Shown here in pieces: positions 4,714 through 40,274 of a DNA stretch of 40,274 bases (position 1 is the stretch's first letter; each line of letters starts with the position of its first letter). Position numbers and translations under genes: made by a program. Origin of the DNA: Pelotomaculum sp. UBA3103 (GTDB taxonomy: Bacteria > Bacillota > Desulfotomaculia > Desulfotomaculales > Pelotomaculaceae); the NCBI GenBank assembly GCA_002365855.1, contig DFAP01000024.1, positions 1 to 40,274 of the forward strand. Direction: 5' to 3'. A model generated the notes under the pieces. It saw only the letters and a list, made by a program, of their open reading frames with translations, ran no database searches and had not been told where the DNA came from.

Positions 4714-6474
4714 TTGGTTTATGATGCGACCAGGATGAGGGACTTTGAAATTTCTGAAGCAGCAGAAAAAGGAATGCCCTTGCCGGAAGACTGGATGGAA
4801 AAACTGGACCTGGGAAAAGATGAGCTTATACCTTACGGCAGGATCTGCAAGCTGGATTTTATGAGGATTATAGACCGGCTCGGGGACAGGCCTGAAGGTA
4901 ACTACATAAACGTAACCGCTATAACGCCAACCCCGCTGGGTGAAGGAAAAACCACCACCTCCATAGGGCTGGTCGAGGGGCTCAGCAAGAGGGGAATTAA
5001 CGCGGGAGCCGCTATTCGCCAGCCTTCAGGCGGCCCAACCATGAATATCAAGGGTTCGGCGGCGGGAGGCGGCAACGCCCTGGTTATACCCATGACCGAA
5101 ATATCCCTGGGGTTAACCGGCGACATCAACGATATTATGAATGCCCATAACCTGGCCATGGTGGCCCTTAACGCGCGGATGCAGCACGAGCGGAACTACG
5201 GTGATGCAGAACTGGCGAAGCGCGGCTTGAGACGTCTGGATATCGACCCGACCAATGTTGAGATTAAATGGGTAATTGATTTCTGCGCCCAGGGCCTTCG
5301 TAAAATTATCATGGGTACTGGCGGCAGGCAGGATGGCTACATGATGGAATCCGGTTTCAACATAGCTGTGAGCTCAGAGCTGATGGCAATACTTGCCGTT
5401 GCCACGGATTTAAAAGACTTACGGGAGAGAGTGGGTAAAATCGTCGTTGCCTACGATAAAAAGGGCAGCCCGGTAACAACATCAGACCTGGAAGTTGCCG
5501 GAGCCATGTGCGCCTATATGAGGAATACCATCAACCCGACCCTTGTCAGCACCGCCGAATACCAGCCTGTGTTAATGCATGCAGGTCCATTTGCCAATAT
5601 AGCCATCGGCCAGTCGTCAATTATCGCTGACCGGCTGGGCCTTAAAATGTTCGACTACCATGTAACGGAGAGCGGCTTTGCAGCCGACATCGGCTTTGAA
5701 AAATTCTGGAACGTTAAATGCCGGACAGGCGGCCTGACACCCAATGTTTCGGTTATTACAACCACGATCAGGGCTCTTAAGATGCACGGCGGAGGGCCCT
5801 CAGTGGCGCCGGGCCGGCCCCTGCCGGTAGAATATACGAGGGAAAACCTCAAGCTTCTTGAAAAAGGCATCCCCAACCTGCTGCACCATATTGCCGTGGT
5901 CAAGAAATCCGGGATCAAACCGGTGGTATGTATCAACGCCTTTTATACAGATACCAGGGATGAGATCGAAATGGTGCGGCGCTATGCCACCCAGGCAGGC
6001 GCCCGCTGCGCACTTTCCGAGCACTGGCTGAAAGGAGGGGAAGGCGCGCTTGAGCTGGCGGATGCGGTAATTGACGCCTGTAACGAGAGGGTTGACTTCA
6101 AATTCCTTTACCCGCTGGAAATGCCCCTGCGGCAGAGGGTTGAAGTAATAGCCAGAGAGGTGTACGGCGCCGACGGGGTTTCGTGGACGCCGGAGGCCGA
6201 AGCAAAAGCAAGGCGGTTTGAAGCAGATCCCGCCTTTGCCGATTTTGCCACCATGATGGTCAAAACCCACCTCAGCCTGTCCCACGATCCCACCCTGAAA
6301 GGAGTACCAGGGGGCTGGACCCTGCCGGTGCGGGACGTATTGATCTTTGCCGGTGCGAGGTTCCTCTGCCCTGTTGCGGGCGCGATCAGCCTGATGCCCG
6401 GAACCAGTTCCGACCCCGCCTACCGGCGCATTGACGTGGATGTGAATACCGGTAAAGTGCTGGGCCTGTTTTAA
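4714..6474 (+). CDS. fhs: Formate-tetrahydrofolate ligase, divergent form
   Basis: Fhs joins formate to tetrahydrofolate with ATP, giving 10-formyl-THF. In acetogens and syntrophs it works in the methyl branch of the Wood-Ljungdahl pathway, in either direction. The 586-residue protein has the ATP-binding loop [10 protein letters not shown] (about residues 74-83) and the family blocks [14 protein letters not shown] and [13 protein letters not shown]. The start is taken as TTG 4714 because GGGAGGGG at 4699-4706 is 7 nt upstream; an ATG at 4735 is an alternative. The protein is longer than the roughly 556-residue acetogen enzyme. Several usual acetogen blocks differ, for example [12 protein letters not shown] where acetogens have a form like EPSLGPVFGIKG, so it may belong to a separate branch of the family. 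Confidence 0.93.
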
Positions 6475-6502
6475 TTACGAAACTGGTGCTAATAAAGATA
6501 AG

Positions 6503-6531
6503 CCCGCACTTTTGTCGCCAAAAAGCGCGGG
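6503..6531 (+). terminator. Hairpin between convergent fhs and cupin genes
   Basis: An 11-bp stem with one mismatch (6503-6513 with 6521-6531) lies 29 nt after the fhs stop codon. The tail TAAAATTTTA is AT-rich but not a clean T run. It could serve either convergent transcript. Confidence 0.4.
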
Positions 6532-6623
6532 TAAAATTTTATCTGCACGGTATTTCAGCCGCTGTTGTTGAAACAGGGGGTTTGTCAGACCTCGCGCAGA
6601 TGAAATCACAAGGTGCGGAATTT

Positions 6624-7257: not shown

Positions 7258-8463
7258 TTGGCAATCAAAGTTTACACCATCAAGGTCAGTAACAAGGAGG
7301 AGGCCTTCCGGGCCATCGCGTCCGTTGGGGCCGACCGGTCCGGCTGCGGCTGGATGGCGCCCAAAGCTGTTCACAGGCTGATCATGCTGGACGGGGTTCA
7401 GCCAAGGCAGGCCAATATCATCAAACAGGAAATGCTTGGCAAAGGGGGGGAAGCTGCCGTCGACAGGGGCGTGGTTGACTGCTCCAACCCAGAGTCAAGG
7501 GTGCTGCTGATGGGCACCCTGAAGCAGTACGAGGCTTTCCTGGCCAAGATAAAGTACCAGCCTTTCGGCCTGTCAGCCCTGGCCGGACAGATCAGGAAGG
7601 TTTTGGAAGGGCAGGAGGGGTACAGGCCTTTTGACCTCGAGTGCCGTGGAAAGTCCATTCGCCTCGGGGAAAAGACGCATGTCATGGGAATTCTCAATGT
7701 CACACCGGATTCCTTTTCAGACGCGGGAAAATACCTTGACCCGGGCCTTGCGGTGGAACGGGCCATGCAGATGATTGCCGAAGGCGCCGATATCATAGAT
7801 CTGGGCGGCGAGTCCACCCGTCCCGGAGGTGCGCCGGTGAATGAAGAAGAGGAGCTGGCCAGGGTTATGCCGGCCCTCAAAAGGCTGGTAGCAGAAGTTC
7901 CCGCGCCCATATCCATCGACACGACAAAATCTTTGGTGGCCAGGCAGGCGCTTGAGGCCGGGGCAAACATTATCAACGACCAGTGGGCGTTGCGGTCCGA
8001 CCAGGACATGGCCGCCCTCGCAGCTGAATACGATGCTCCCCTGGTGCTGATGCACAATCAGAAAGATACCCGGTACTGTGATTTGATCGGGGATATGGTG
8101 GAGTACTTCCGTGAAAGCATCAGCAGGGCAGTTGAAGCCGGAGTGGACAGGGGAAAAATCATTATCGACCCCGGGCTTGGTTTTGGCAAAACCGCCGGGC
8201 AAAACCTGGAGACGCTGCGCCGCCTGGATGAACTCCGTTGCTTGGGACTGCCCGTATTAATCGGCCCGTCCCGCAAATCCACTATAGGTAAAGTTTTGAA
8301 CCTGCCGGTGGATCAGCGTGTGGAAGGTACCGCGGCAGCTGTGGCTGTGGGTATCTCCAATGGAGCTGATATTGTGCGAGTGCATGATGTAAAAGAAATG
8401 ACGAGGGTAGCCAGGATGACGGATGCCATAGTCAGGCAGCGCTGGGTTGAACGGCAAATATGA
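7258..8463 (+). CDS. folP: Dihydropteroate synthase with N-terminal extension
   Basis: FolP condenses 6-hydroxymethyl-7,8-dihydropterin diphosphate with p-aminobenzoate to dihydropteroate. The 401-residue protein is longer than the minimal enzyme because about 135 residues precede the TIM barrel. That extension is known from clostridial FolP proteins and has no assigned role. The barrel shows MGILNVTPDSFSD (about 143-155), DLGGESTRPG, SIDTTKS, DPGLGFGKT and GPSRKS, covering the pterin diphosphate and pABA sites. The start is TTG 7258 with GGAGGG 6 nt upstream. folB and folK follow on the same strand with gaps of 66 and 122 nt. Confidence 0.95.
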   Translation: MAIKVYTIKVSNKEEAFRAIASVGADRSGCGWMAPKAVHRLIMLDGVQPRQANIIKQEMLGKGGEAAVDRGVVDCSNPESRVLLMGTLKQYEAFLAKIKYQPFGLSALAGQIRKVLEGQEGYRPFDLECRGKSIRLGEKTHVMGILNVTPDSFSDAGKYLDPGLAVERAMQMIAEGADIIDLGGESTRPGGAPVNEEEELARVMPALKRLVAEVPAPISIDTTKSLVARQALEAGANIINDQWALRSDQDMAALAAEYDAPLVLMHNQKDTRYCDLIGDMVEYFRESISRAVEAGVDRGKIIIDPGLGFGKTAGQNLETLRRLDELRCLGLPVLIGPSRKSTIGKVLNLPVDQRVEGTAAAVAVGISNGADIVRVHDVKEMTRVARMTDAIVRQRWVERQI

Positions 8464-12561: not shown

Positions 12562-12684
12562 AAACTCGGTTGGGTGGTATCTGCAAGAACCACACCAAAA
12601 TATACATGTTTTGACAGATAAATATGATACCGTTTGCCGCTTGGAGCCGGTAAGGACCGAGACGGGGGTTATAAAAAACTTACG

Positions 12685-12747: not shown

Positions 12748-13638
12748 ATGAATAAACCTAAAATAGCAATTGTAGGAGCGGGCAAAGTAGGGTCAGCCCT
12801 TGCGCTTCTTTTGAGCCGCAAGGGATATCCCGTCGCCGGGGTGGCCAGCCGGAGCATATCGTCCGCCAGGCGCGTAGCCGTGGAATTATCAGTGCCCGCG
12901 ACAGATCAGCCGGAAGAGGTTACTGCCGGCGCCGATGTTGTTTTCATAACCACTCCTGACCGTGAAATCGCCCGGGTGGCCGGGCAGATTAACGACCGGG
13001 GTGGGTTTCGGCATGGTCAGGTCGTTTTCCATACCAGCGGGGCACATCCCGCTGATGAGGTTGGCGCCGCCCGCCTTTCCGGCGCCCTGGCCGCATCGCT
13101 TCACCCGCTTCAGTCTTTTGCCGATGTAAAAATGACTATGGAAAACCTTCCTGGTTCATATTTCGCACTGGAAGGCGACGAAGGAACGCTGGCTTTGGCT
13201 GAACAGATTGTGCTGGACCTTGACGGCAGGAGTTTTTCCATAGCTGCTGTGGACAAGCCGCTGTATCACGCTGCGGCCTGTATAGCCTCCAATTACCTTG
13301 TATCCTTGATGCATTTTGCCACGGGGCTGTACAGCCGTTTTGGACTCTCCAGGGAGGAAGCGTTTGAGGCGCTGTATCCCCTGGTTCAGGGCACCATAAA
13401 AAACATCAGGCAGGTAGGTCCGGCTGCGGCTTTGACCGGACCTGTGGCCAGGGGTGACGGCACAACCCTGGAGGGGCACCTGGAAGTATTTAAAGAAGTA
13501 GGCCCGCAGGAGATGGAGCTGTACTGCAAGCTGGGGCTTTACACAGTCAGGGTGGCCCTGGAAAAAGGAAGCATCGACGCCGCCCAGGGTGAAAAGCTGA
13601 CCGGAATATTTAAAGAAATATCTAAGGAGGAAAAGTGA
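12748..13638 (+). CDS. panG: Rossmann/DUF2520 reductase, probable ketopantoate reductase of the PanG type
   Basis: The 296-residue protein begins with a Rossmann nucleotide-binding strand, IAIVGAGKVGSALALLL (residues 6-22), followed by VASRS. It continues with an all-helical C-terminal domain of the DUF2520 family (around residues 160-290, including HAAACIASNYLV). Proteins of this type, named PanG, reduce ketopantoate to pantoate in Francisella, which lacks panE; homologues occur in clostridia. Here the gene overlaps panB by one base and is followed by panC and panD, so the missing reductase step of the pathway fits it well. That assignment is inference from family and context. GGGGAG lies upstream of the ATG. 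No panE or ilvC is seen in this window. Confidence 0.68.
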   Translation: MNKPKIAIVGAGKVGSALALLLSRKGYPVAGVASRSISSARRVAVELSVPATDQPEEVTAGADVVFITTPDREIARVAGQINDRGGFRHGQVVFHTSGAHPADEVGAARLSGALAASLHPLQSFADVKMTMENLPGSYFALEGDEGTLALAEQIVLDLDGRSFSIAAVDKPLYHAAACIASNYLVSLMHFATGLYSRFGLSREEAFEALYPLVQGTIKNIRQVGPAAALTGPVARGDGTTLEGHLEVFKEVGPQEMELYCKLGLYTVRVALEKGSIDAAQGEKLTGIFKEISKEEK

Positions 13639-30584: not shown

Positions 30585-30988
30585 TCAGCCTGCCATTACA
30601 GGCTCATGGACAGAGGCTTTTCTGCCGGGACCACCCCAGATATTTGCCGCTTTTATAACTTCATCCAGGTCAAATGGCTTGGCGATAAATGTCTTATAAC
30701 AGTCTTTGGACGGGAAATCGTTCTGATCCGGAATGGAACCTGAAATAATGACAACCGGGATGTCCCTGAGCCTGGGCTGGGAACGCATGGTTTCGATCAG
30801 GGCTCGTCCACTCATACCAGGCATGTTAAGATCAACAAAGACTATTTCGCCGCCGGTTCTTTTGCGAGCTGTTCCAGCCCGGCCAGGGCATTGGGGACCG
30901 TGAAGACCCTGTGCCCCTCATCGCTTAAAGCGATTTTTAAAACCAGGGCAATATTGGGCTCGTCTTCGATAACCAGCACACGGGACAT
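30585..30988 (-). pseudogene. Response regulator (CheY-like receiver), interrupted by a frameshift
   Basis: Reading the reverse strand from ATG 30988 (AAGGAGG upstream) gives MSRVLVIEDEPNIALVLKIA with the acidic pair, but the frame stops after 48 codons at 30842-30844. The rest of the receiver continues in the -1 frame, with the phosphoacceptor in VFVDLNMPGMSG, the switch Ser in VVIISGS and the Lys in FIAKPFD. It ends at 30585. One extra A in the AAAA run (complement of 30860-30863) would restore a single 134-codon receiver. It may be a recent pseudogene, a sequencing error, or -1 slippage, since the GCA-AAA codons allow tRNA-Lys to re-pair. It lies beside the histidine kinase block. Confidence 0.75.
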
Positions 30989-31240: not shown

Positions 31241-31603
31241 ATGTTTAAAGTAAAATTAGATATGTACAAAGAGATGGTCAGGGAGACATTCAGCTCCGTG
31301 GGGCAGGCCATCGGTACTCATGTCATGCTCCTGGTCGTAGAGCACGCCCTGTGGAAAGCCAGGCAAAAATACGAGGAAGCTGCCCTGATCGAGTTTTCGG
31401 AGGAAGGTGTGTCTTTTGACAGACTGGATAAATTGGACCCGGACAGGTCGGTTCAGGTAGTCCACGAATTTGTCATGTCCATCGTTGCCACCCTCGGACG
31501 CCTGGTTGGGATCCAGCTCGCCCGCCAGCTGACTGAACAACTGCAGGAAAAAACCGCTGATATGGAGGCGCATGATCTTGGAGAGAATTTCGACAGGTAT
31601 TAA
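31241..31603 (+). CDS. Small helical protein encoded upstream of and overlapping KaiC
   Basis: A 120-residue protein that I do not recognise. It has no signal peptide. It reads as long amphipathic helices (about residues 1-50 and 65-105), with one moderately hydrophobic stretch, FVMSIVATLGRLVGIQLA, near residues 77-94. It ends with a charged tail. The ATG follows CGGAGG (GGAGG about 15 nt upstream, so spacing is loose). Its last 32 nt overlap the start of the KaiC gene in another frame, which implies translational coupling and a joint role, for example as a partner or adaptor of KaiC. That role is inference from position only. Confidence 0.65.
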   Translation: MFKVKLDMYKEMVRETFSSVGQAIGTHVMLLVVEHALWKARQKYEEAALIEFSEEGVSFDRLDKLDPDRSVQVVHEFVMSIVATLGRLVGIQLARQLTEQLQEKTADMEAHDLGENFDRY

Positions 31604-32957
31604 CGAACTGGATGAAATGCTGTGCGGGGGTTACCCGGAGGGGTCAACCATCCTGATTGTGGGCCGCCCTGGCACGGGAAAGACTATTTTTGCCCACCAG
31701 ATGATGTTTCATAACGCCACTCCTGCAAAAAAAGCTATTTACCTGACAACGCTCGCGGAGCCTCAGGTAAAGGTGATGAGGTTTCAACAAGAATTAGACT
31801 TTTTCGATCACGCTAAATTTCAGAAGACGGTCATTTACCACGACCTCGGAAGCATTCTGCGCAGGCGGGGGTCATCCCAGTGCCTGGCATATATCAGCGA
31901 GCTTTTACAAAAGTATCAGCCGAGCTTGACCGTTGTTGACGCTGTCAAAAGTCTCGCCGACATGATTCCCTCTTTTACCGAGTTCCGCGAATTTCTCCTG
32001 GATTTGTCGCTTCGGCTGGCCACCTGGGGGTGCACCGCTCTTTTGCTGGGTGAATACTCAGAGGAGGATATCGAGGTCCGTCCGGAATGCGCCATCGCCG
32101 ATGGGATCGTCTACCTTTCCGGGACGGAGGAAGAAAAGAGGCAGAAGCGCTACCTGCGCATCATGAAGATGCGGGGGACCGGCTATGTGGGCGGGCAAGT
32201 AATGTATCTGATTTCGGAGAAAGGCCTGCAGATTTTCCCTCGCTTGAAACCAGAAGTCGGCATGCAGAGTTACGGGCTGTTTACGGATAGGATTTCAACC
32301 GGTCTGGCGGGACTGGACGAGATGACCGGCGGAGGCATAACAAGAGCCACCACTACTCTCTTGAGCGGCTCCTCGGGGACGGGCAAAACCGTGCTGGCGC
32401 TGCACTTTGCCTATGCGGGTTTGGTTGCCGGTGAAGCCGCGGTTTACGTTTCCTTCGAGGAAAACCCCGGTCAGCTCACCTCCAGCGCCCGAAGATTGGG
32501 CCTTGACCTGCAGCCGTACATAGACTCCGGACAATTTCACCTGCTCCACGTTTCCCCCATCGAGCTCGATGTGGATGAGCACACTTTTATTATCCAAAAG
32601 CTGGTTCGGGAGGCCGGCGCCTTGAGACTGGTCATTGATTCCATCTCGGCCTTCGAGATCGGCATGGCGGATAAAATTCAATATACCGATTTCATCTGGG
32701 CTTTATCCGACTATTTTAAAACCTGCGGGGTAAGCTTGCTGCTGACCCACGAGCTGCATGACTGGTCTCAGGCATCGGAAATAACAAGGCATGGTATTAG
32801 TTATTTGGCGGACAACCTGCTGCTGCTGCGGTTCCTGGAGCATGGCCTGGATGTGACGCGCTACCTGCGGGTGGTAAAAATGCGCGGCAGCGGCCACGTC
32901 ACCAAAATGCGGGAGCTGCGGATTGGCGACGGCGGGATGGAACTTTGCGAGGTTTAG
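31572..32957 (+). CDS. Double-domain KaiC-family ATPase
   Basis: KaiC-family proteins are RecA-like hexameric ATPases. The 461-residue protein has two tandem KaiC domains. Domain 1 (1-230) has Walker A GRPGTGKT (31-38); domain 2 (235-461) has GSSGTGKT (266-273) and the glutamate pair in SFEEN (296-297). In domain 1 the matching place reads TLAEP, with a single Glu. Walker B strands are LTVVDA and LRLVIDS, and each domain ends with a KMRGTG/KMRGSG turn. It is shorter than clock KaiC (about 519), lacking the C-terminal KaiA-binding tail, and no kaiA or kaiB is near. The following gene is a histidine kinase, so an output role in signalling is likely. Confidence 0.88.
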   Translation: MILERISTGINELDEMLCGGYPEGSTILIVGRPGTGKTIFAHQMMFHNATPAKKAIYLTTLAEPQVKVMRFQQELDFFDHAKFQKTVIYHDLGSILRRRGSSQCLAYISELLQKYQPSLTVVDAVKSLADMIPSFTEFREFLLDLSLRLATWGCTALLLGEYSEEDIEVRPECAIADGIVYLSGTEEEKRQKRYLRIMKMRGTGYVGGQVMYLISEKGLQIFPRLKPEVGMQSYGLFTDRISTGLAGLDEMTGGGITRATTTLLSGSSGTGKTVLALHFAYAGLVAGEAAVYVSFEENPGQLTSSARRLGLDLQPYIDSGQFHLLHVSPIELDVDEHTFIIQKLVREAGALRLVIDSISAFEIGMADKIQYTDFIWALSDYFKTCGVSLLLTHELHDWSQASEITRHGISYLADNLLLLRFLEHGLDVTRYLRVVKMRGSGHVTKMRELRIGDGGMELCEV

Positions 32958-32992
32958 CAGCATTGATCATGATTAGGCAGGGGGGGGTTGTT

Positions 32993-35161
32993 ATGGATAG
33001 CTCGGCCCAAGTAAATCTGCTCTTGAGCTCTGACCGCTGGAACGAATTTTTAAAGAGCACGGCGCTAGGCCTGCAGCTCAACCTGACCCTGGTCTTTCCG
33101 GGTGCTGACCACCATATACAGGTACCTGGGGAGTGTCCCGTTTGTCATGAAACCTACCCGTCCCTGACCAGCTCTGACATTGCGGCAGCATTAAAAAATA
33201 CTAATAATTACCTCGGAGAGTTTACCTCTGACAGCGGCCTCGCCGCCGTGGTCATGCCCCTGCGGGACGGCCTCTTGGTTATTGCGCGCGAATGCGCCTG
33301 TACCATGGGTTCATGCGGTCAGCCGCTGCCGGACCGCACAATAATAGCCCATAAGCTGCTGGTAAGCTTTCAGGCTGCCCTCGGAGAGTGCTTTGTGGGC
33401 GGCAAACGGGCAGTTGAATTGTCCACCTTGCGTCATATGAACCAGATCGTCCTATCCCTCTTCCAGGGGGAAGGTGATGCGCTGCAGCGGTCCTTTGACC
33501 TTGTCCTCAGCGCCCTGGTGATCCTGTTGGACGCCCGGGCCAGCTGGCTGGAGTGCCGGGGTGAAGGCGGTACCAGCCTGCAGGTAAAGGGTGATCGGCC
33601 TGCGGTTGAATCCTATCTTAAAGATGATCAAGGCCCAGCCGTATCATTTGATATAAATACAGGCAGCACCAGGGGCAGGCTTGGAGTCTTCGCCCCGGCG
33701 GACCAAGAACAGGCTAAAGCTCTGCTGCCTCAAATGGCCCAGGAATGTGTCATCGTATTTGAGGTCGCACGCCTTTTTAAACTGCTGCACAGCCGTTTAG
33801 CCCAGGTGCTTGGTTCCATTGGCAGCGCGGTGGTGCTTGTTGACAGGTACGGTTGCGTCACTTATGCCAATAAAGCCGCGGAACAGCTCCTGGGACGCCC
33901 TGCGCTGACTCTGATAGGAAAACCACATGCCGATATTCCTGCGCCCTGGACACGGTTTATCAAGTCTGATATGGGCGGGCAGGTTACAGGGCGTATGGAT
34001 CCCGTCGGGCAGGGTACCGAGATGCGGTGGGTGGACTGGCAGCTATCTCCCCTGGGGGAGGATGGAACCGCCCTGGGATGGCTCATCCTGGCCGAAGACC
34101 GCACTGATTTCACCCGCTGGCAAAATGCCGCCCGTGAGGCAGAACGGCTATACACGACAACCACGATGGTGGGCAAGCTGGCTCACGAGTTGCGCAACCC
34201 GTTAAGCGCCGCCAGTGGTTTGCTTCAGCTGGTGGGGAGAAAACGGGAGCCTGACAAGGTAAAAGGGTACGTGGATTTGATTATGCGTGAACTTGAACGG
34301 GTTACCCGTCTCTTGAACGAGTTTTTGCTGCTGGGCAGGCCCGCCGACATGGCGCCCGAACCCCTCGACCTGGCTGCCTTCCTTCATGAGCTGACCCCTT
34401 TGCTGGAGGGAGAAGCGGCGGGTACCGGAGTTAAGATCATCATAGATATGGAAGAGACGCCCCCGGTAGCAGCCGATCCGGGCCAGCTTACCCAGGTCGT
34501 GTTAAATCTTACCCGCAATGCTGTAGAGGCTGCGCCAGGGGACGGTCTGGTTGAGATCGCCTTGAGGGCAAATCAAGATGGTGCGGCGCTGTCGTTTTGT
34601 GACAGTGGCCCTGGACTGACGTCCGGAGTTATGGAAAAGCTGTTCCGGCCGTTTTTTACTACCAAGGAGCGCGGCACCGGACTTGGCCTGCCAGTGGTCC
34701 AGGCTATTGTCCACAACCATGGCGGGCGGGTCACTGCAACAAACGCCCCTGGCGGGGGCGCTTTATTTACAGTCATACTGCCGGTATGCGCGGAAACGGG
34801 AAGCGGGAGCGCCAAAATTGACGTGCTCATCGCAGTGGCTGATAAAATGGTCTGCTACCCGGCCGAGCAGGCGCTGAGAGCGTCCGGTTATAATGTTTTA
34901 TCTGCCGACGGCACGGCAGACGCCCTGCTCCTGGCGGATCGCTATGAGCCGGCCATGCTTTTGTTGGACCAGTATGGCCTGGATGAGAATGACCTGGTGA
35001 ATATTCAAAAAGCATGGCCCCTGGTTTACATCCTTATTATCGGTGAACCGCGTAAACAGGGGGATACCGCCTGCCTTAACTTCATACCCAGGCCGTTGGA
35101 TGCTGCCGGGTTGGTGGGCAAAGTGGACCTGGTTCTGGGTCCAGGGATTTGCAGGAATTAG
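32993..35161 (+). CDS. Cytoplasmic sensor histidine kinase with C-terminal degenerate receiver
   Basis: The 722-residue protein has no membrane segment. Order of parts: an unrecognised N-terminal domain with CPVC and CACTMGSC cysteines (1-145), a GAF-like domain (about 150-265) and a PAS domain (about 275-375). A HisKA helix follows with the phosphorylated His398 in LAHELRNPLSAASG, then a HATPase domain (N-box NLTRNAVEAA, DSGPGLT, GTGLGL). A receiver-like domain is last (about 609-722). In that last domain the acidic pair reads AVAD and the conserved Lys is Arg (FIPRPL), though an Asp remains in LLLDQYG, so it is a pseudo-receiver. The start is ATG 32993 behind a run of G. It lies 35 nt after KaiC. 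The layout recalls cyanobacterial CikA. Confidence 0.85.
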   Translation: MDSSAQVNLLLSSDRWNEFLKSTALGLQLNLTLVFPGADHHIQVPGECPVCHETYPSLTSSDIAAALKNTNNYLGEFTSDSGLAAVVMPLRDGLLVIARECACTMGSCGQPLPDRTIIAHKLLVSFQAALGECFVGGKRAVELSTLRHMNQIVLSLFQGEGDALQRSFDLVLSALVILLDARASWLECRGEGGTSLQVKGDRPAVESYLKDDQGPAVSFDINTGSTRGRLGVFAPADQEQAKALLPQMAQECVIVFEVARLFKLLHSRLAQVLGSIGSAVVLVDRYGCVTYANKAAEQLLGRPALTLIGKPHADIPAPWTRFIKSDMGGQVTGRMDPVGQGTEMRWVDWQLSPLGEDGTALGWLILAEDRTDFTRWQNAAREAERLYTTTTMVGKLAHELRNPLSAASGLLQLVGRKREPDKVKGYVDLIMRELERVTRLLNEFLLLGRPADMAPEPLDLAAFLHELTPLLEGEAAGTGVKIIIDMEETPPVAADPGQLTQVVLNLTRNAVEAAPGDGLVEIALRANQDGAALSFCDSGPGLTSGVMEKLFRPFFTTKERGTGLGLPVVQAIVHNHGGRVTATNAPGGGALFTVILPVCAETGSGSAKIDVLIAVADKMVCYPAEQALRASGYNVLSADGTADALLLADRYEPAMLLLDQYGLDENDLVNIQKAWPLVYILIIGEPRKQGDTACLNFIPRPLDAAGLVGKVDLVLGPGICRN

Positions 35162-35209: not shown

Positions 35210-35239
35210 ACAGGCCCTTGCCACGGGGCTTGTTTTTTT
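35210..35239 (+). terminator. Intrinsic terminator of the KaiC/kinase block
   Basis: An 8-bp stem with one G-T pair (35210-35217 with 35226-35233), an 8-nt loop and a run of seven T (35233-35239). Confidence 0.8.

Positions 35240-39777: not shown

Positions 39778-40274
<497 letters not shown>

Follow-up and report, generated by a model that had tools for sequence, protein, structure and literature searches.

Known KaiC systems and the Pelotomaculum cassette

The histidine kinase CikA has the domain order GAF, HisKA, HATPase and pseudo-receiver. Its last domain is reported to bind KaiB and quinones (PMC12632262). Regarding KaiC itself, kaiC homologues are listed in Proteobacteria, Thermotogae and Chloroflexi (PMC6627678); almost all kaiC genes of non-cyanobacterial bacteria lie near signalling genes (kinases, GGDEF/EAL), often before a kinase, and the Ramlibacter genome paper, which describes this, treats kaiC-kinase operons without kaiB and with SY, TY or SF sites as possible hourglasses (PMC3164672). 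Some KaiC3 proteins have Tyr as the second site (PMC5520375), and archaeal KaiC-like ATPases have been proposed as signalling hubs (Makarova 2017, as cited in PMC5847659). The locus considered here lies in a stretch of 40,274 nucleotides from Pelotomaculum sp. UBA3103 (contig DFAP01000024.1; below, "the window" means this whole stretch), which is contig 99 of a draft genome of 2.38 Mb that is 87.3% complete. Open reading frame (ORF) calling placed on its forward strand three co-directional genes, for a small helical protein, a two-domain KaiC and a cytoplasmic histidine kinase.

Compared with CikA, the window kinase has a similar kinase core and a C-terminal pseudo-receiver, with a part that reads by eye as GAF-like; it differs in having an extra PAS domain and a Cys region, and in some of the related kinases the pseudo-receiver was not detected. 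The gene arrangement is of a known type, because kaiC-kinase operons without kaiB are described in PMC3164672, and the cassette falls within this published arrangement. As in Ramlibacter (Rta_04330/Rta_04340), kaiC stands directly 5' of a specific kinase, with no kaiB or kaiA and with sites of the S-Y/S-F type; the Ramlibacter kinase, however, has an N-terminal domain that is SasA- and KaiB-like, and the passages of the paper that deal with it mention no small helical partner (PMC3164672), whereas the cassette considered here combines a conserved small protein with a kinase that bears a Cys-containing sensor and a pseudo-receiver, and related sensors are attached to two different outputs. The KaiBC system of Rhodobacter sphaeroides likewise has a KaiC without KaiA, tied to a kinase gene (PMC10076222, PMC5520375), but it includes KaiB and a C-terminal coiled-coil extension of KaiC (PMC10076222), neither of which was found here. 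The archaeal hubs share with the window locus the presence of KaiC ATPases in proposed signalling roles (as cited in PMC5847659).

The pair made of the small protein and KaiC appears to be a regulator that can be reused for different signalling enzymes, not a copy of the cyanobacterial clock, because the same pair precedes a kinase here and, in relatives, an enzyme expected to make cyclic di-GMP (c-di-GMP). The case is built on the observed conservation, adjacency and co-occurrence of the genes, on an observed swap of the output gene, and on residue patterns.

The small protein and KaiC as a conserved pair

The three genes are a real, conserved cassette: the neighbourhood search suggested in the first-pass annotation of this DNA found the small gene, KaiC and the kinase together in other genomes as well. 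In a sample of 398 genomes of the phylum, with the small gene identified by profile search and the KaiC clade delimited at 380 bits or more, 19 genomes had the small gene, 19 the KaiC and 18 both; four of the 23 KaiC matches at E <= 1e-60 (218-234 bits) belong by score and context to other KaiC groups and stand outside the count of 19. Each of the 18 genomes that have both carries them side by side and in the same orientation, with broken loci in G159 and G225 (G and L numbers denote genomes and loci), and the exceptions are G361, with KaiC alone, and G197, with the small gene alone. The hypergeometric figure for this co-occurrence, 5e-29, is not readable as a probability because the sampled genomes are related. 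As for the order (113 genomes, with one of the two genes searched by a single sequence and the other by profile), 18 of the 19 genomes with KaiC have the small gene, and 18 of the 21 with the small gene have KaiC; G004 has KaiC without the small gene, and G086, G102 and G079 have the small gene without KaiC, the contig of G079 stopping just past it. The idea that the small protein is a likely partner of KaiC, put forward when the locus was first read, is strengthened by this sharing and adjacency.

Wherever the genes are intact, the gaps within the cassette are about 50 nucleotides or less, and the long ones sit at split genes; KaiC or the output gene is split or truncated in L040, L041, L053, L089 and L091, and L051 stops just past the small gene. 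Loci L028-L036 came from one scan of genome contigs with the window KaiC as query, which confirmed nine loci; L037 is on the same contig as L030 and is excluded from tree and counts, and in G066, where the small gene and KaiC were found, the third gene stands outside the output counts. Six flanking-gene queries (BioY, PanK3, DusB, a gene for 174 residues, a dehydrogenase-like gene and GreA) had no match at E <= 1e-4 in 27 loci, so the cassette occurs apart from its flanks. Neither KaiA nor KaiB was found in the 87.3% complete genome of the window, as had been remarked for the locus, and KaiB was found in only one of the 33 other genomes with the small gene, namely G012 (contig 88, L124), on a different contig from the cassette.

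Regarding the small protein, its AlphaFold2 model (mean predicted local distance difference test, pLDDT, 91.8; predicted template modelling score, pTM, 0.76) is made of helices 2-24 and 26-43, a short beta hairpin and then a 51-residue helix, in line with its first description as a helical protein. It had no significant match in Pfam, NCBIfam, PADLOC or PHROGs, and its comparison by sequence with the PDB gave matches at chance level only, so that assignment to a known family by sequence was dropped; the best Pfam match of 31 family members had an E value of 0.014. Homologues numbered 28 by single-sequence search and 110 by profile search, and the carriers include Desulfofundulus kuznetsovii (Desku_0722), Candidatus Desulforudis audaxviator and Desulfotomaculum nigrificans. 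The sole Pfam name among the 110 profile matches was EAL, borne by P0108, a protein of 137 residues that begins with a part similar to the end of an EAL domain, joined to the small protein. In L081, near 6200-6600, a second copy of the small gene lies directly 3' of a GGDEF-EAL-like gene, without KaiC. A fusion of the small protein to KaiC in G012, hinted at by the length of an open frame, was ruled out by a stop codon in between.

One pair, two output enzymes

The third gene comes in two types. In type A it encodes the kinase (window, L028, L029, L030, L031, L038, L040 and L085, with L041 and L088 more distant); in type B, which comprises 22 loci (L042-L048, L050, L052-L054, L075-L080, L082-L084, L086 and L087) in a sister clade of KaiC, a protein of about 472 residues (split in L053) takes the place of the kinase. 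The two type B proteins that were scanned, those of L042 and L054, have PocR and GGDEF domains (in L042, GGDEF at 1.7e-47 and PocR at 5.4e-8), and the region between the two domains is GAF-like by eye. The 18 phylum pairs divide into 14 of the cyclase type (one broken), three of the kinase type and one with none found (G159, where KaiC is truncated).

In the KaiC tree, restricted to frames of at least 440 residues (35 rows, L037 left out), the 22 cyclase-linked rows lie on one side of a branch with support of 100/100, and the nine kinase-linked rows cluster together with L032 (94/89); long branches are flagged in this tree, that of L088 above all, and long branches also meet at the outgroup. 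A single exchange of the output gene would be enough to explain it.

The sensor regions of the two types also appear to have a segment in common. A bridging profile, made from three kinases (L041, L088 and L144) that were picked for matching type A or type B profiles, scored 24-47 bits on all eight type A and 26-41 bits on all nine type B sensor regions, with at most 3.0 bits on 340 shuffles and at most 4.3 bits on eight hand-picked signalling proteins, six of which scored; the best-scoring shared part corresponds to about residues 113-215 of type A. The type A profile gave 11.8-19.9 bits on nine of nine type B regions versus 4.2 for shuffles. Of 15 genomes, 14 have matches to the type B sensor together with the pair, and the distance correlations among the type B proteins, at 0.87-0.98 (n = 22), are those of co-inherited partners. 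The reading preferred here, in which we have somewhat better than even confidence, is that the small protein and KaiC would form an ATP-dependent unit whose target is an exchangeable output enzyme, contacted at its sensor region.

The response regulator and the loci without KaiC

The window has a response regulator gene, divergent from the cassette and upstream of it, which a three-frame reading found to carry one frame break; its two pieces, searched separately, both match intact regulators beside related cassettes, and the break may be decay or an assembly error. The first-pass annotation was right as to its three genes and overlooked this fourth one, so its inventory was incomplete. A single-domain regulator adjoins 11 of the 12 type A kinase loci (window, L028-L031, L039-L041, L049, L085 and L088), and none was found next to the kinase in L038; L039 and L049 are regulator-bearing kinase loci without KaiC. 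In eight aligned intact regulators Asp9, Asp53 and Lys104 are invariant, for which reason the intact regulators look competent for phosphotransfer. Spo0F was the top natural PDB match (4.4e-21), yet many receivers score almost equally, and this identification was rejected.

Several observations weigh against a pair that acts on the kinase. Of the seven phylum genomes that have a type A sensor, just three have the small gene and KaiC. Kinase and regulator occur alone, without small gene or KaiC, in G288, G312, G359 and G043 (the pseudo-receiver of the kinase is present in the first three, and none was detected in G043), and six genomes among those examined have kinase and regulator without KaiC. 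G102 (L039) has the small gene, kinase and regulator, and no KaiC of the clade in its genome; since, in addition, a stretch near 8063-8125 (VPERVSTGISILDK) resembles the start of KaiC and precedes the kinase in frame, this locus has probably undergone an in-frame deletion of kaiC that spared its other genes. G086, too, is without KaiC; its kinase and regulator are present and its small gene is broken. L032 has the small gene and KaiC without a type A kinase, downstream of a different hybrid kinase. The distance correlations of type A are weak (r 0.12 for KaiC-kinase, 0.30 for small-kinase and 0.54 for small-KaiC, n = 7). As for the kinship of the sensors, the type B profile beat its best shuffle (7.3 bits) on just two of eight type A regions, the direct comparison of the type A and type B sensor alignments gave an unconvincing 10.7% probability (E 0.003), the bridging kinases had been pre-selected by matching type A or B profiles, and support over the first 125 residues is thin.

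These loci bear on another explanation, according to which kinase and regulator make up an independent two-component system, and the small protein and KaiC are co-transcribed with it while acting elsewhere or being themselves its target. It would account for the four genomes with kinase and regulator alone, for G102, for L032 and for the weak KaiC-kinase correlation; it is nonetheless judged unlikely, because the third genes of both branches share a sensor segment despite their different outputs, the type B sensor stays with the pair in nearly every genome, and the gaps at intact loci are short. The loss of KaiC with the kinase kept fits a KaiC that would modulate the kinase, and it fits an independent two-component system equally.

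KaiC residues and the case for a timer

The window KaiC matches the Pfam family KaiC at 4.5e-80 in two stretches, in keeping with its annotation as a two-domain protein, and NCBIfam TIGR02655 at 172 bits, well under the cut-off of 546 bits; in its own genome the KaiC stretches reach 120 and 153 bits, and the next-best place 32 bits. A residue table of 19 KaiCs (eight of type A, including L032, and 11 of type B) has the Lys and Thr of the P-loop, the Walker B Asp, the Lys/Arg pairs K224/R226 and K457/R459, and E318 conserved in all 19, with E319 in 18. In the catalytic glutamate pair of CI, E77 is replaced by Ala or Ser and E78 is retained in 19 of 19; three KaiCs of L033-L035 have Gly in place of E77, so this replacement is not specific to the module. 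The residue pattern makes it plausible that both rings bind ATP and that some CII chemistry takes place.

As for the phosphorylation sites, S431 is retained in every one of the 19, and the T432 site is Tyr in the window, L029, L030 and L040, Phe in four of the eight type A KaiCs and Leu in all 11 of type B. The window KaiC ends three residues past its match to residue 479 of 519, and is without the C-terminal A-loop and tail; those of type B extend about ten residues further. Judged by its sequence, this KaiC is unlikely to run a KaiABC-type cycle. A simplified timer has also to be considered, in which KaiC would autophosphorylate at the match to Ser431/Thr432 (Ser-Tyr here) and a slow dephosphorylation would serve as an hourglass read by the kinase: CII retains E318, the P-loop and S431, four loci have the Tyr, such Tyr sites are reported for some KaiC3 proteins (PMC5520375), and operons of KaiC and a kinase that have SY/SF profiles but no KaiB have been proposed as hourglasses (PMC3164672). 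Such a timer is improbable given the Phe and Leu at the second site of the other type A and all type B KaiCs and the substitution of E77 throughout, and the same paper doubts a cyclic timer in KaiCs unable to phosphorylate two residues (PMC3164672).

Other kaiC loci met in the survey have different neighbours. In L121 (G381) the start of the KaiC frame also matches a receiver profile and a kinase follows, so that it is likely a receiver-KaiC fusion; L117 has, in place of the small gene, two receiver genes before KaiC, one recognised by profile and one by eye. L118 and L119 (G379, G201) are other KaiC groups adjoining GGDEF proteins, that of L119 being PAS-GGDEF-HD, and L122 (G201, same phylum) is a kaiB-kaiC pair followed by a PAS-SpoIIE-HATPase_c_2 protein, a possible output of the PP2C type. 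A phage or defence origin of KaiC was dropped, PADLOC and PHROGs returning only generic matches of ATPase and recombinase type.

The kinase and its pseudo-receiver

Pfam identified PAS_4 (1.3e-10), HisKA (1.8e-12) and HATPase_c (7.5e-23) in the kinase, in agreement with the domains first assigned to it; the GAF domain of that assignment remains a reading by eye, since the best Pfam match of this part in eight members had an E value of 0.011 and was not GAF. All 23 aligned sequences have a CxxC pair in the N-terminus, suggestive of a metal or redox site.

The last 120 residues had no significant Pfam match, and profile comparison identified a receiver in them (best E 2.6e-6, to a CheY; 95% probability to the regulators of the cassette itself). 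In eight such domains, read by eye, the acidic pair is lost in all eight, the Asp in three and the Lys in six; the window kinase retains the phospho-acceptor Asp. A pseudo-receiver is defined as a receiver in which any of five residues (DD, D, T, K) is missing (PMC12632262), and by this definition the domains count as pseudo-receivers, so that the last domain is no ordinary receiver, as had been thought from the outset. Three related kinases, L041, L088 and L144, gave no sign of the pseudo-receiver. Solved structures gave 33 related sequences at E <= 1e-20, the best being 'Sensor protein' 3a0r, ZraS and sporulation kinase B; none of the 33 is labelled CikA or SasA, and among the 60 listed of the 63 receiver matches of the C-terminal domain no chain is labelled CikA.

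The special link to CikA made in the first-pass annotation, that is, a KaiC clock whose state a CikA-like kinase would sense by means of its pseudo-receiver, draws on the similar domain order and on the pseudo-receiver itself. It did not hold up well, and the reading is very improbable: KaiB, the partner of the CikA pseudo-receiver (PMC12632262), was not found in this genome, nor was KaiA, and KaiB is found in just one of the other small-gene genomes; the solved relatives bear no CikA label; three related kinases have no detected pseudo-receiver; KaiC is without its C-terminal tail, with E77 replaced and Thr432 turned into Tyr, Phe or Leu; and kinase and regulator also occur without KaiC. Both the clock and the CikA readings are weakly supported.

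Proposed mode of action

Returning to the ATP-dependent unit with an exchangeable output, KaiC would presumably be an ATP-dependent hexamer, with the small protein as a partner or adaptor; together they would alter how active the product of the third gene is, most likely via the sensor region of that enzyme, with control presumably running from the unit to the enzyme. In the window the kinase would pass phosphate to the divergently encoded stand-alone regulator, and in the sister lineage the enzyme would act as a diguanylate cyclase. The input would combine the nucleotide state, perceived via KaiC, with a signal at the Cys-containing N-terminal region of the kinase, and the pseudo-receiver, without residues of the usual phosphotransfer chemistry, would probably serve as an internal brake or a docking surface.

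Gene layout and neighbouring features

The coordinates first given for the three ORFs hold (Table 1). Taken from ATG 31572, the KaiC frame has 461 residues and overlaps the small gene by 32 nucleotides; taken from TTG 31578, the protein begins MERISTGI.. and the overlap is 26 nucleotides. The TTG is more likely the true start, because this beginning matches that of the relatives and GGAGG precedes the codon by 9 nucleotides. The gap between KaiC and the kinase is 35 nucleotides with the kinase start at ATG 32993. The hairpin after the kinase is weak evidence taken alone, as the region has 11 terminator-like hairpins versus 5.7 expected by shuffling.

Table 1. Features of the cassette and its surroundings in the window
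Feature	Position	Strand	Basis
Small helical protein, 120 residues	31241..31603	+	ORF, profile searches, AlphaFold2 model
Two-domain KaiC-family ATPase; start most likely TTG 31578, ATG 31572 possible	31578..32957	+	ORF, Pfam, GGAGG 31564-31568
Cytoplasmic histidine kinase, 722 residues: CxxC N-terminal region, GAF-like, PAS, HisKA, HATPase_c, pseudo-receiver	32993..35161	+	ORF, Pfam, alignments
Pseudo-receiver domain of the kinase	34790..35158	+	Profile comparisons
Single-domain response regulator gene, divergent, frameshift near 30845-30855	30585..30988	-	Frame reading, matches of relatives
Terminator-like hairpin followed by a T run, shortly 3' of the kinase stop	35210..35233	+	Hairpin scan

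Elsewhere in the window, a pan motif (RF01749, 61.3 bits) at 12571-12669 of the forward strand overlaps the region just 5' of an ORF at 12748, and the 5' part of a bacterial 16S rRNA gene occupies 39778-40274 on the same strand, cut off by the end of the window.

Significance

No account of the small family, or of a swap of KaiC outputs in these bacteria, was found among the literature matches listed, as judged by titles and the beginnings of abstracts and with subscription literature largely outside. A wider proposal, offered tentatively and with rather less than even confidence, is that an unnamed helical family replaces KaiA and KaiB as the partner of KaiC in anaerobic Bacillota, and that the two proteins constitute an ATP-driven plug-in unit that has been moved between phosphorelay and c-di-GMP synthesis via a shared sensor segment. 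Many bacterial KaiCs appear to sit outside clocks, with their function open, and similar statements are made in PMC3164672 and PMC11832031 for the groups that these papers treat. The cassette comes in two versions with different read-outs, and such a compact, recurrent set, consisting of KaiC, a small partner and an output enzyme with a measurable product, makes a role of KaiC outside the clock testable in vitro.

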